A DNA stretch of 45,987 nucleotides from Novosphingobium sp. (lineage in GTDB: Bacteria > Pseudomonadota > Alphaproteobacteria > Sphingomonadales > Sphingomonadaceae), in the NCBI GenBank assembly GCA_026400375.1, contig JAPLPG010000324.1:1-45987 (forward strand), written 5' to 3'. Numbering within the stretch: the stretch's first letter is position 1; every line of letters starts with the position of its first letter. Below, piece by piece: positions 1 through 5,517 of this stretch. Position numbers and translations under genes: made by a program. The notes below the pieces were generated by a model, which saw only the letters and a program-made list of their open reading frames with translations, was not told where the DNA came from and did no database searches.

Positions 1-1135
<1,135 letters not shown>

Positions 1136-1647
1136 TTCATGTATTTCCAAAGGGTTGTGTAGATGGCCGGAAACCTCTGAAGGGCTTGGAGAAAGCAAGA
1201 GGGCGGCTGCATCAGCGGCAACGCATCTATCTTCCGGTTCATCGGCAGATATGCCTCGGCAGGACGATAGTCAATTGTGGATCGGGGCAGGGCGGTGGTA
1301 TCCAGCGTTCATCGAGCCGGAAACCGGCCAGACGGAACGAGAGGACCATTGCAATGATCAGACTGCCCCGCCGCTCGGGCACTTTCCCCCGCCCGCAAGC
1401 CCATGATGCCCCGGCCAATGCCTGGGGTTCGCAATGGAAGCACTTGCCGCGTTCGCCAATGAAGCTCGTACGCACTGCCATGGGCAAAGGCTTGCGGACT
1501 GTACGCGGAAATATCTGAAGAGCTTTCGCGCGGAGGCGCAGAGAAGATCTCATGCCGCAGGCTGGATAGCCCGACAGCCTGCAAGGCGTCCTCGCCACCT
1601 CTCCTGCGTCTCTCCGCGCCTTCGCGTCTCCGCGCGAAACACCGATC
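1136..1647. other. Intergenic region between hemJ and rho
   Basis: A 512-base stretch with no convincing gene. Short open frames on both strands have no family-like features and overlap one another. It should hold the rho leader and promoter at its left side, and it contains the nested inverted repeat described separately at 1524-1639. I see no clear intrinsic terminator with a T-tract for hemJ. Confidence 0.6.
1524..1639. repeat. Nested inverted-repeat element downstream of hemJ
   Basis: The outer arms share a perfect 12-base core TTTCGCGCGGAG (from 1524) and its complement ending at 1639; the complementarity continues imperfectly into GGCGCAGAGA-like sequence. Inside lies a second, perfect 8-bp hairpin, GCAGGCTG (1557-1564) against CAGCCTGC (1575-1582). 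The right arm is rich in the alternating CTCCGCG/TCTCCGCG pattern. The whole reads as a compact palindromic intergenic element of REP or MITE type rather than a simple terminator, because there is no T-tract. It has no coding capacity. Confidence 0.6.
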
Positions 1648-2167: not shown

Positions 2168-2665
2168 TCATGCCGGGTCTGGCCCGAGTGCCCGGAACAT
2201 CACCAGAGCATCGACCCGCCCGAGCGCGGGATGATCGAACGCTTCCGGCAGACGGCCGACTTCCGCAAAACCCAGCGAAGTCCACAAGCCGACCGCGCGC
2301 GTGTTGGAACTGACAACGAAGTTGAACTGCATTGCCGCAAAGCCGCGCCTGCGCGCTTCATCGAGCGAATGCAGGCACATCGCCCGCGCCACGCCCTTGC
2401 CGGTTGCCCGGGCTGCAGTCATGTACCCGCAGTTGCCGACATGTGCGCCGCCGCCCTGCTGGTTCTGTCGAAGATAGTACGTGCCGACGATGGTGCCGTC
2501 GATCTCTGCGACAAATGTCCACCGGTCCGGACCGCACCAGTAGGCCAGCGCGGCTTGCTCGGTCATGTCCCGGTCGAGCGCATAGGTTTCGCCCGCGCGG
2601 ATCACCGGCAGGATGATGCTGCCGATCGATACCTGGTCCGCCGGTGTGGCGGGGCGGATGATCAA
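2168..2665 (-). CDS. GNAT-family N-acetyltransferase
   Basis: A 165-residue GCN5-related acetyltransferase that would transfer acetyl from acetyl-CoA to an unknown amine. The fold is visible as IIRPATPADQ at the start, FVAEIDGTIVGTYYLRQN in the middle strands, the acetyl-CoA loop region ARATGKGVARAMCLHSLDEA, and NFVVSSNTRAVGLWTSLGF at the end. I chose the TTG at 2665, which overlaps the hemE stop (TTGA); no ATG gives a complete domain. The overlap implies translational coupling to hemE. The family assignment is firm, the substrate unknown and the start tentative. Confidence 0.82.
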   Translation of the reverse strand: MIIRPATPADQVSIGSIILPVIRAGETYALDRDMTEQAALAYWCGPDRWTFVAEIDGTIVGTYYLRQNQQGGGAHVGNCGYMTAARATGKGVARAMCLHSLDEARRRGFAAMQFNFVVSSNTRAVGLWTSLGFAEVGRLPEAFDHPALGRVDALVMFRALGPDPA

Positions 2666-3702
2666 TGCGACCAGCCTCGCACGATCTTCAGTAGCGCCTC
2701 GACGTTTTCGATCGGGGTGTGCTGGCCAATGCCGTGGCCCAGATTGAACACGTGCGGGCGATCGGCGAAGGCTTCGAGAACGCGGATCGTGTGCTTTTCC
2801 AAGTCTGCGCCGCCTGAGAGCAGCAGCAGCGGATCGAGATTGCCCTGCACCGGCATCCCTGCAGGCAATTCGCGCGCGGCCCACAGCGGGTCGATGGTTT
2901 CATCGACGCCCACCGCATTGACGCCAGTTTCGCGGGCATAGGCGGCAAGCTTTTCGCCCGCACCCTTGGGGAAGCCGATGATCGGCACGTGCGGATAGCG
3001 GCGCTGCATCTCGGCCGTGATCCTGGCGTTGGGGGCAATCACCCAGCGTTCGAACTGGGCGGGCGAGAGACTGCCTGCCCATGAATCGAACAGTTGCAGG
3101 CCTTGCGCGCCGGCATCGGCCTGACCCGACAGGTATTCGATCGTGACATCGCAGATCGCATCGATGATCGCCTGGAATGCCGCAGGATCGCGATAGGCCA
3201 AGGCGCGGGTATCGTGATGATCGCGGCTGCCTTCGCCGGCAACCATGTAGGTGGCGACGGTCCACGGAGAGCCGGCAAAGCCCAGCAGCGTCGTCTCGGG
3301 GCTGATCAGCGCCTTCACCTTGGCCACGGTCTCGTAGATCGGGGAAAGACGCTCAGGCACGGCGGTGAGGCTGTCCAGCGCCACATCGAGCAGGCGGGGC
3401 GAAAGGTCAGGGCCTTCACCAACGAGGAACTTCAGATCCTGCCCCATCGCGTAAGGCACGATCAGGATGTCGGAAAACAGGATCGCGCCATCGAAGCCGA
3501 AGCGGCGGATCGGCTGCACGGTCACTTCAGCAGCGGCATCGGTATCGTAGACCAGCGCAAGGAAACCGCCCTTTTCGGCACGAAGCGCGCGGTATTCCGG
3601 CAGATAGCGTCCGGCCTGGCGCATCAGCCAGATTGGCCGGGAAGCAAGGTTTTCCCCTCTGAGCGTGCGGAGAAGGGGGCCAGCTTCGGGCGTATCGGAC
3701 AT
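2662..3702 (-). CDS. hemE: Uroporphyrinogen decarboxylase
   Basis: Decarboxylates the four acetate side chains of uroporphyrinogen III to give coproporphyrinogen III in heme synthesis. Signature stretches are RPIWLMRQAGRYLPEYR near residue 25, GFAGSPWTVATYM, and FNLGHGIGQHTPIENV near the C-terminus. I chose the ATG at 3702 (MSDTPEAGPLL), which gives about 346 residues and matches the family N-terminus; an ATG 15 bases upstream is possible. The gene points away from the candidate origin, as hemE does at the Caulobacter origin, and its stop overlaps the start of the acetyltransferase. Confidence 0.96.
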   Translation of the reverse strand: MSDTPEAGPLLRTLRGENLASRPIWLMRQAGRYLPEYRALRAEKGGFLALVYDTDAAAEVTVQPIRRFGFDGAILFSDILIVPYAMGQDLKFLVGEGPDLSPRLLDVALDSLTAVPERLSPIYETVAKVKALISPETTLLGFAGSPWTVATYMVAGEGSRDHHDTRALAYRDPAAFQAIIDAICDVTIEYLSGQADAGAQGLQLFDSWAGSLSPAQFERWVIAPNARITAEMQRRYPHVPIIGFPKGAGEKLAAYARETGVNAVGVDETIDPLWAARELPAGMPVQGNLDPLLLLSGGADLEKHTIRVLEAFADRPHVFNLGHGIGQHTPIENVEALLKIVRGWSH

Positions 3703-3717
3703 CGTGCGTCGATCCAT

Positions 3718-4073
3718 TCTACTTAAACTAGATTCTTAGAATCAGGTTGATGGTGTTAGTTGGCCCTGTGGATATCGGGGTTTGCGGTTGTCTGCCCGAT
3801 TTGTGAGTCCGCTTCCACACTTTTCGGTGTCTGCGACTCTGGACAGAGTCAGAGGAGTCCGGCGTCAAGGCGAAGTTCTCACCGCTCTCCACAGGCTGGG
3901 GAAAAGCCTGTCCACTTGTCCATAACCCGGCATGGGGATGACTCGGAACGAGGGTGAATCTGGCGCTTCAACTTGTCCCTGATGCTCTCCCGTGGTTTAT
4001 CGTCGGTGTTTCCACAGTGTTGTTCCGCTGGCTGTCCGGCGGGACCGCCAGCCACCGATGAAAGCCACTCCGG
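3718..4073. other. Candidate chromosomal replication origin (oriC) between hemE and ppsR
   Basis: A 356-base gap between divergent hemE and ppsR with no gene. It holds several TCCACA cores typical of DnaA boxes: TGTGGATAT (3767-3775, one mismatch to the complement of TTATCCACA), GCTTCCACA (3811-3819), CTCTCCACA (3885-3893) and GTTTCCACA (4008-4016), plus TGTCCATAA (3917-3925). A perfect 7-bp hairpin ACAGGCT/AGCCTGT (3891-3911) adjoins one core. The start of the gap (about 3719-3760) is AT-rich for this genome and could be the unwinding element. Neighbouring gene order matches the Caulobacter origin. No box is a perfect consensus. Confidence 0.68.
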
Positions 4074-4913
4074 ATGCGTCTGCACCTGCATCTTCTGTCT
4101 GATTCCACAGGCGAAACGCTGGAAATGATCGCCAAGGCGGCGCTGGCGCAATTCGATGGCGCCGACGTGGTGCGGCATTTCTGGCCGATGGTGCGATCGA
4201 TGCAGCATCTGGACCGCATCATGGGCGAGATCGCGGCAAATCCCGGTCTCGTGCTCTACACCCTGGTCAATCCCGAAACGCGCGCGCGGCTGGAACAGCG
4301 CTGCCTGACGCTCGGCTTGCCGAGCGTGGCGGCGCTCGACACGGTGACTGACGCCCTGCAACAGCAACTGGGCGTTCAGGCCAAGGGGCGACCGGGCCGC
4401 CAGCACATGATGGACGAAGCCTATTTCGCCCGGGTCGACGCGATCCAGTTCACCATTGCCCATGATGATGGGGTGAATTGGGAAAACTGGGAGGAAGCCG
4501 ACATCGTCCTGGCAGGCGTTTCGCGCAGTTCCAAGACGCCGACTTCGATCTATCTCGCCAATCGCGGGTACAAGGTGGCCAATATCCCGATCGTGGTGGA
4601 AAGCCCGCCGCCGCCGATGCTGTTTTCGCTCCGCCGGCCGCTGGTGGTGGGGCTGACGACCAGCCCCGAGCGGTTGATCGCGGTGCGGCGCAACCGGCTG
4701 CTGTCGCTGAACCAGGCGCCCGAAACGGCCTATGTCGACAACGATCATGTCACGCGTGAAGTGCAATATGCCCGCCGCATATTTGCCGACAACGGCTGGG
4801 CAGTGATTGACGTTTCGCGCCGTTCGATCGAGGAGACGGCCGCGGCGGTCATCAATCTTTACAACGAGCGCGTGGCCGCCGGTGCAAGCGGCGATGGAGT
4901 AAAGCCGATATGA
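4074..4913 (+). CDS. ppsR: Pyruvate, phosphate dikinase / PEP synthase regulatory protein (DUF299)
   Basis: A bifunctional ADP-dependent kinase and phosphate-dependent phosphorylase that switches pyruvate phosphate dikinase or PEP synthase off and on by phosphorylating a threonine. It has 279 residues, the usual length. The N-terminus [20 protein letters not shown] and the P-loop-like [18 protein letters not shown] are diagnostic, followed by [13 protein letters not shown] and [11 protein letters not shown]. It is the first rightward gene beside the candidate origin, the position of its homologue in Caulobacter. The sequence does not show which PEP-forming enzyme is its partner. Confidence 0.94.
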
Positions 4914-4929
4914 TGCGAGTTGCGGTGCG

Positions 4930-5517
4930 ATGACCCTGATCCTGGCGAGCCAGAGCGCATCGCGCAAGATGATGCTGGAGGCGGCAGGCGTGCCGTTCGA
5001 GGCGCGCGCGTCGCAGGTCGATGAAGGCGCGATCAAGCGCGAACTGATCGGAGTGCCCGGCTGCCAGATCGCCAGCGTTCTGGCCGAAGCCAAGGCGCTG
5101 TGCGTTTCGCTCGGCCTGCCGGGGCGGCTTGTGCTGGGCGGGGATTCGCTGGTCGAAGTGGCCGGGCGCCAGTTCGACAAGCCGGTGAGCCGCGACAATG
5201 CCGCAGAGCATCTGGAATTCTTTTCGGGCAAGGAGATGCAGCTCCATTCCGCAGCCGTGCTGATGCGCGATGGCCAGGCGGTGTGGAAAACCTGCGAGAC
5301 CGCAAAACTGCAGGTTCGCACGCTTTCTCCCGACTTTATCCAGAGCTATCTCGACAGGGAATGGCCCGCAGTAGCAGGCTGTGTCGGGGTGTTCCGGATC
5401 GAGGCGCTGGGCGTGCAATTGTTCGAGCACATCGATGGCAGCCACTTCAGCGTGCTGGGCATGCCGCTGCTGGCCCTGCTGGCGGCGTTGCGGGCGCAGG
5501 GGGAACTGCCATCGTGA
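4930..5517 (+). CDS. maf: Maf-like nucleoside triphosphate pyrophosphatase
   Basis: A 195-residue Maf/Ham1-fold protein. The family hydrolyses non-canonical or methylated nucleoside triphosphates to monophosphates and affects septum formation when overexpressed. The N-terminus [18 protein letters not shown] is the Maf substrate loop, followed by [17 protein letters not shown], the family's strand-loop carrying an acidic catalytic residue. It ends with [17 protein letters not shown]. It sits in the conserved ppsR-maf-aroE-coaE-dnaQ string; aroE starts inside its stop codon. The exact nucleotide preference cannot be read from the sequence. Confidence 0.92.

Follow-up and report, generated by a model that had tools for sequence, protein, structure and literature searches.

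A probable chromosomal replication origin between hemE and ppsR in a Novosphingobium genome

Described origins near hemE and the gap studied here

The chromosomal origin of Caulobacter crescentus, Cori, occupies the hemE-COG1806 position and, in the excerpts of the published accounts used here, is described as containing an AT-rich region of 40 bp and, besides several DnaA boxes, five sites for CtrA and one for IHF (PMC1914354, PMC4468827). CtrA motifs are also reported, in part of the first account, for origins of the Wolbachia group (PMC1914354). Nearer to the genome studied here, Ori-Finder assigned the oriC of Novosphingobium sp. PP1Y to the vicinity of hemE, the location also given for N. 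aromaticivorans DSM 12444; the portion of that description at hand gives three DnaA boxes and base-composition asymmetry and names neither a GANTC cluster nor a 13-bp word such as those described below (PMC4059872). According to a further excerpted source, most Sphingomonadaceae origins in DoriC lie near hemE, one Sphingopyxis entry being placed elsewhere, and the oriC of Sphingopyxis granuli TFA, a member of another genus, lies near hemE in a conserved gene order with DnaA boxes and a putative DUE (PMC4741004). In part of another report, Ori-Finder is said to have returned several positions in the case of many genomes, and proximity of dnaA to ori is said not to be conserved among Sphingomonadales (PMC8116508).

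The window, that is the whole stretch of 45,987 nucleotides analyzed, comprises bases 1-45987 of the 61378-bp contig C11 of a Novosphingobium-like assembly (3.70 Mb, 338 contigs, 80.67% complete), whose best PpsR matches are Novosphingobium genomes with identities up to 96%. In this window hemE on the minus strand and ppsR on the plus strand diverge from a 356-bp gap at 3718-4073, and maf, aroE, coaE and dnaQ follow ppsR, all on the plus strand. NCBIfam models identified hemE, ppsR, maf, aroE, coaE, dnaQ, hpf and ptsN; the matches to hemJ, maf and ptsN score below their curated cut-offs. We take ppsR to be the gene otherwise called COG1806, DUF299 or RP001. A first-pass annotation made from the sequence alone had proposed a probable oriC in this gap, with hemE to the left, rho further left, ppsR-maf-aroE-coaE-dnaQ to the right and the genes on both sides pointing away from it. 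The gene order, the directions of transcription and the position of rho were all recovered, and the proposal itself is supported by the neighbourhood, the box cluster, the AT-rich edge and conservation.

As in the hemE-COG1806 origins, we found a divergent gap, a box cluster above chance and a matching AT content. Unlike the PP1Y origin, which the excerpt places also close to dnaA (PMC4059872), this gap lies on a different contig from the full-length DnaA match of the genome, which is on contig C134. With high confidence we interpret the gap as the origin of chromosome replication, belonging to the hemE-COG1806 type of Alphaproteobacteria. It is very probably an ordinary origin at a place already known for relatives, a sound annotation that brings no surprise, and the origin of a fragmentary genome is thereby very probably fixed. 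The features of the locus are as follows.

2-1294, minus strand: rho, in the left part of the window
2662-3717, minus strand: hemE, uroporphyrinogen decarboxylase (TIGR01464, 377.6 bits)
3718-4073, no strand: proposed oriC, the hemE-ppsR intergenic gap, based on position, boxes, conservation and the skew of relatives
3719-3760, no strand: AT-rich edge (67% AT), a probable duplex-unwinding element judging from its sequence
3731-3960: eight GANTC sites, starting at 3731, 3739, 3805, 3835, 3846, 3855, 3940 and 3956
3767-3775, minus strand: predicted DnaA box ATATCCACA, beside the AT-rich edge and within the conserved block 3757-3780
3793-3804, plus strand: conserved block TGCCCGATTTGT, with TGCC[CTG]GA[AT]T in 76 of 80 gaps
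3813-3819, plus strand: TTCCACA core, restricted among 28 displayed sequences to the closest ones
3834-3839, plus strand: conserved GANTC site CGACTC, with CGA[AC]TC in 78 of 80 gaps
3885-3893, plus strand: predicted DnaA box CTCTCCACA, from box match and alignment block
3916-3925, plus strand: near-box TTGTCCATAA, which is TGTCCACAA in several relatives
3972-3978, plus strand: conserved CTTGTCC, at a fixed distance to the 13-bp word
3988-4000, plus strand: lineage-specific origin word TCCCGTGGTTTAT of 13 bp, near-invariant, with CCCGTGGTTTAT in 69 of 80 gaps
4008-4016, plus strand: predicted DnaA box GTTTCCACA, 10-11 nt past the 13-bp word
4074-4913, plus strand: ppsR (NF003742, 325.6 bits)

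DnaA boxes, AT-rich edge and searches for other sites

Four TCCACA cores lie in the gap, at 3767 (minus strand), 3814, 3888 and 4011, while a fifth at 4104 is inside ppsR and thus outside the gap. The box ATATCCACA differs from TTATCCACA at one position. In its exact form TTATCCACA is present three times in the whole genome and never in the gap, so that the boxes of the gap are imperfect. A facing CTGGGGA at 3895-3901, often CTGTGG in relatives, adjoins the box CTCTCCACA, and TGTCCATAA is located at 3917-3925. The four cores and the TGTCCATAA near-match listed by the first-pass annotation are therefore present, and TCCACA is found more often than chance predicts, with four copies compared to a mean of 0.27 in 2000 dinucleotide shuffles of the 356-bp gap (p 0.0005). 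The three copies of TNTCCACA compare to a mean of 0.05, a count reached in none of the 2000 shuffles. Judged by window density, the gap holds 4 of the window's 20 TCCACA (P = 1.6e-5) and 3 of its 8 TNTCCACA (P 2.5e-5).

The AT-rich stretch that had been claimed at 3719-3760 is likewise real and rare, its AT content being reached by 39 of the 45945 42-bp stretches of the window. The plus strand contains no C from 3744 to 3763, and across 78 of the 80 aligned gaps most of these positions seldom carry C, with 36% at one of them. A hairpin had also been noted beside one core: the 7-bp stem exists (arms 3835-3841/3844-3850), but it is kept in only 3 of the 80 sequences (window, L001 and L002) and its folding does not exceed that of shuffled sequences (z 0.38); we consider it incidental. 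Another hairpin, GC-rich and located at 4027-4052 just before ppsR, lies in a poorly conserved part of the alignment; its folding is equalled or bettered by 3 of 200 shuffles.

Unlike Cori, the gap contains no exact CtrA site and no IHF match. The exact CtrA site TTAA-N7-TTAA was found in none of the 80 gaps, and the shuffles also gave none. One match with two mismatches lies at 3736-3750, and the whole window has 25 such matches compared to 18.85 expected. Among 57 distant gaps three have exact sites (L196, L204 and L235). For IHF, the E. coli consensus was used as the search word and gave no match in the gap at up to one mismatch; the local IHF may read another word. We take the DnaA-trio to consist of in-phase TAG-type triplets between the unwinding element and the first box. 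No clear phase was detected for it, TAG making up 1-5% per phase in 78 of the 80 near gaps and 3-9% in 42 of 56 distant gaps, the remainder of which have no recognised first box. The tract where these triplets were sought is C-poor.

Conserved words, GANTC sites and a proposed order of events

Conservation was investigated in 80 related loci from a genome collection, the best 80 of 550 confirmed. In 79 of them hemE is divergent from ppsR (L020 has too little sequence upstream of ppsR to judge), and the gap measures 270-547 bp. The same divergence was found in 56 of 57 loci fetched from order and class samples, L215 being the exception; these loci are best matches only, ppsR having been matched in 68 of 115 class and 57 of 60 order genomes. 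An alignment of the window with 79 sequences revealed sharp conserved blocks across most of the gap: GTTGGCCCTGTGGATATCGGGG, TGCCCGATTTGT, CGACTC, GTCAA and CTCTCCACAGGCTGGGG in the first part, followed by TTGTCCATAA (partly), ACTTGTCC, TCCCGTGGTTTAT and TTCCACAG. The blocks fall mostly at DnaA boxes and the sequence between them drifts. TGTGGA-N20-TGCC[CTG]GA is present in 74 of 80 gaps, and pattern matches anywhere in the gap were obtained for the left-box core in 78, for GTCAA in 63 and for the second-box pattern in 71 of the 80. TNTCCACA averages 2.61 copies over the 80 gaps compared to 0.05 in shuffles, and is absent from 14 of the 57 distant gaps of the order and class loci. These data provide a conserved map of a sphingomonad origin that has no recognisable CtrA sites.

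Two features on which the first-pass annotation was silent are the 13-bp word at 3988-4000 and the eight GANTC sites. Of 149 family genomes, 53 contain the word TCCCGTGGTTTAT, in one copy each; its reversed control was found in 8 of the 149. All 30 loci fetched from these 53 genomes carry it between hemE and ppsR, and among five more genomes reached via loci four have it once, the genome of L029 being the one that lacks the exact word. Spacing to the neighbouring elements is nearly constant: TTGT-N12-CCCGTGGTTTAT was found in 66 of 80 gaps, which is 66 of the 69 sequences holding CCCGTGGTTTAT, and in 69 of 69 TCCACA follows CCCGTGGTTTAT after 10 or 11 nt. Beyond the family the word was not recognisable in the order and class loci examined. 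It was rejected as a DnaA box: the reverse strand keeps CCAC, but TCCCTTGATTTAT in L075 breaks the core, and 52 of 58 order and class loci, with at least two mismatches, have no counterpart at a constant place. A promoter assignment of the word was dropped as well, with no consensus match.

The eight GANTC sites of the gap compare to a mean of 1.90 in the 2000 dinucleotide shuffles, none of which reached this number, and they represent 8 of the 80 sites in the window (P 2.3e-7 by window density). Over the 80 related gaps the mean is 4.79, compared to 1.39 in shuffles. GcrA and a RAMA-domain protein, the latter taken by us as CcrM-like, were each found in 28 of 31 genomes. A single control genome that is not bacterial was hit by the GcrA model too. 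The genome studied here is among the three misses in both cases; because its assembly is 80.67% complete, absence of these proteins is not concluded. Further clusters of at least seven GANTC per 400 bp were seen once in G333, twice in G334 and once in G149 (these relatives are described below). The cluster in G333 is dense and lies 54 kb from the gap on the ppsR side (L269:14014-14669), and the three frames beside it gave no NCBIfam match at 1e-10; those in G334 are at 55 kb and -186 kb and that in G149 is at 47 kb.

From this arrangement we infer how replication might start. DnaA would bind next to the AT-rich edge, at the box 3767-3775, and at the boxes to its right (3885, 3916 and 4008), and the assembled filament would open the AT-rich stretch 3719-3760, at which the helicase would then be loaded. 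Forks would leave both ways, hemE and ppsR being transcribed away from the origin, and methylation of GANTC by CcrM may have a role in timing. It is also conceivable, though we put this forward tentatively and consider it rather doubtful, that the start of replication in the Novosphingobium-Erythrobacter group is governed by a protein other than DnaA, CtrA and IHF, which would read TCCCGTGGTTTAT, fixed in its spacing both to CTTGTCC and to the final DnaA box, in combination with methylation of the GANTC cluster by CcrM. The 13-bp word would offer a concrete target for finding such an unlisted origin-binding protein.

GC skew, rearrangement and alternative readings

The first-pass annotation had named GC skew as a check on its proposal. 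The genome studied here, in 338 contigs, is too fragmented for it, and skew was sampled in five relatives. In three of them the cumulative minimum is at most one 20-kb bin from the gap: G149 (L047), the closed 3.91-Mb chromosome of Sphingomonas sp. IC081, and the Erythrobacter genomes G150 and G151. In the two nearest relatives sampled the minimum lies on the hemE side at 22-23 kb (G333 = L001) and 26-27 kb (G334 = L016). Twenty 20-kb samples of G149 showed skew changing from negative to positive between 3.43 and 3.61 Mb, with the reverse change on the opposite side (1.485 to 1.66 Mb); a single sample, at 100 kb, was slightly negative against the trend. With contiguous 20-kb bins the minimum of G149 is at the end of bin 3457001-3477000, the gap being at 3476.8 kb, and at a resolution of 1-2 kb the curve shows hardly any slope between -6 and +8 kb. 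The minimum follows bin 661001-681000 in G151 (gap near 680.9 kb) and bin 1780001-1800000 in G150 (gap near 1804.6 kb), both curves being noisy and contiguous near the gap only.

Left of rho, L265-L266 (G333) were compared with L131-L150 (G149), L158-L166 (G151) and L274-L293 (G334). A block of G333 that starts immediately to the left of rho and extends to about -28 kb, with mnmE, mnmG and a ParA-like ATPase in it (G333:C35, about 360-384 kb, L265-L266), runs in the opposite direction to its counterparts in G149 and G151, whose frames match each other. Gene by gene, G333 and G334 share a reversal of the segment between -4 and -15 kb, in which plus-strand skew is opposite to that of G149 in nearly every gene compared (exception o43); in the comparison with G151 several genes show no such reversal. 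The pair mnmE-mnmG is inverted in G333 with plus-strand skew still negative, and has the outgroup orientation in G334, yet positive skew. Undoing the block from -29 to -4 (sign and order of bins) moved the minimum to -12 kb in G333, and in G334 to -8 kb with the same flip or -14 kb with both steps. Flipping narrower intervals placed it between -11 and -5 kb in G333, and in G334 at -7 kb, at -5 kb or, unchanged, at -27 kb. One inversion as the full cause was rejected, with a residual of -8 to -14 kb and an mnmE-mnmG pair unlike a fresh inversion. The rearrangement accounts for part of the skew displacement in G333 and G334, not for all of it.

Contig C11 starts inside rho, and the window gives no view of the rearrangement to its left. 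In 7 of 79 loci (L001, L003-L007 and L016, with L005 from N. taihuense and L007 from N. subterraneum) the rho-adjacent protein of G333 was found, in 26 an mnmE-side neighbour, and 46 are indeterminate. Unlike most others, nine full-length loci have no rho match (L009, L011, L012, L015, L017, L018, L019, L031 and L035), which suggests a hemE-side rearrangement; L022, L026 and L076 also have none, but reach less than 2 kb upstream of ppsR.

An origin of the clade about 24 kb on the hemE side, near mnmE-mnmG-parA, would place initiation where the minimum lies in G333 (near -23 kb) and G334 (near -27 kb), and the inversion account fails for the skew of mnmE-mnmG in both. We nevertheless regard it as very improbable, since the genes from -4 to -15 kb are reversed together with their skew relative to G149, which moves the minimum outward, and G333 and G334 differ at mnmE-mnmG by a further inversion with mirrored skew. 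Furthermore, no 400-bp stretch there holds three TNTCCACA: across 300 kb of G333 and 400 kb of G334, at least three copies within this length occur at the gap alone (G149 has no such stretch). With the neighbourhood rearranged, local skew alone would assign the origin of these nearest relatives to a place 22-27 kb from the gap.

That the gap is instead a divergent promoter region, with DnaA acting as a transcription factor and replication starting elsewhere, is highly improbable. DnaA boxes do occur in many Caulobacter promoters, as the excerpt of one report states (PMC4468827), and the fixed spacing of the CTTGTCC / TCCCGTGGTTTAT pair is promoter-like. However, the search for sigma-70-type promoters, the type it covered, gave no match in 3600-4200, the skew minimum is near the gap in three relatives, and conserved blocks extend across most of the gap. 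Practically no weight falls on an RNA or leader of ppsR as the source of the conserved words: conservation near ppsR is strong, but Rfam gave no match over 3000-5000, several of the words are DnaA boxes on both strands, and the distance from the 13-bp word to ppsR varies from 19 to 73 nt in the six order and class loci that match it exactly or with a single mismatch.

One further lead, a flip of GGGCAGGG at 100-200 kb from the gap in two Erythrobacter genomes (among the matches listed), was dropped because base skew has its minimum no more than one bin away from the gap, around which the motif is sparse. Among the matches listed, GGGCAGGG is strand-polar in G149, G150 and G151, and in G150 it changes strand and becomes dense near 390 kb, the behaviour expected if the motif points to the terminus.
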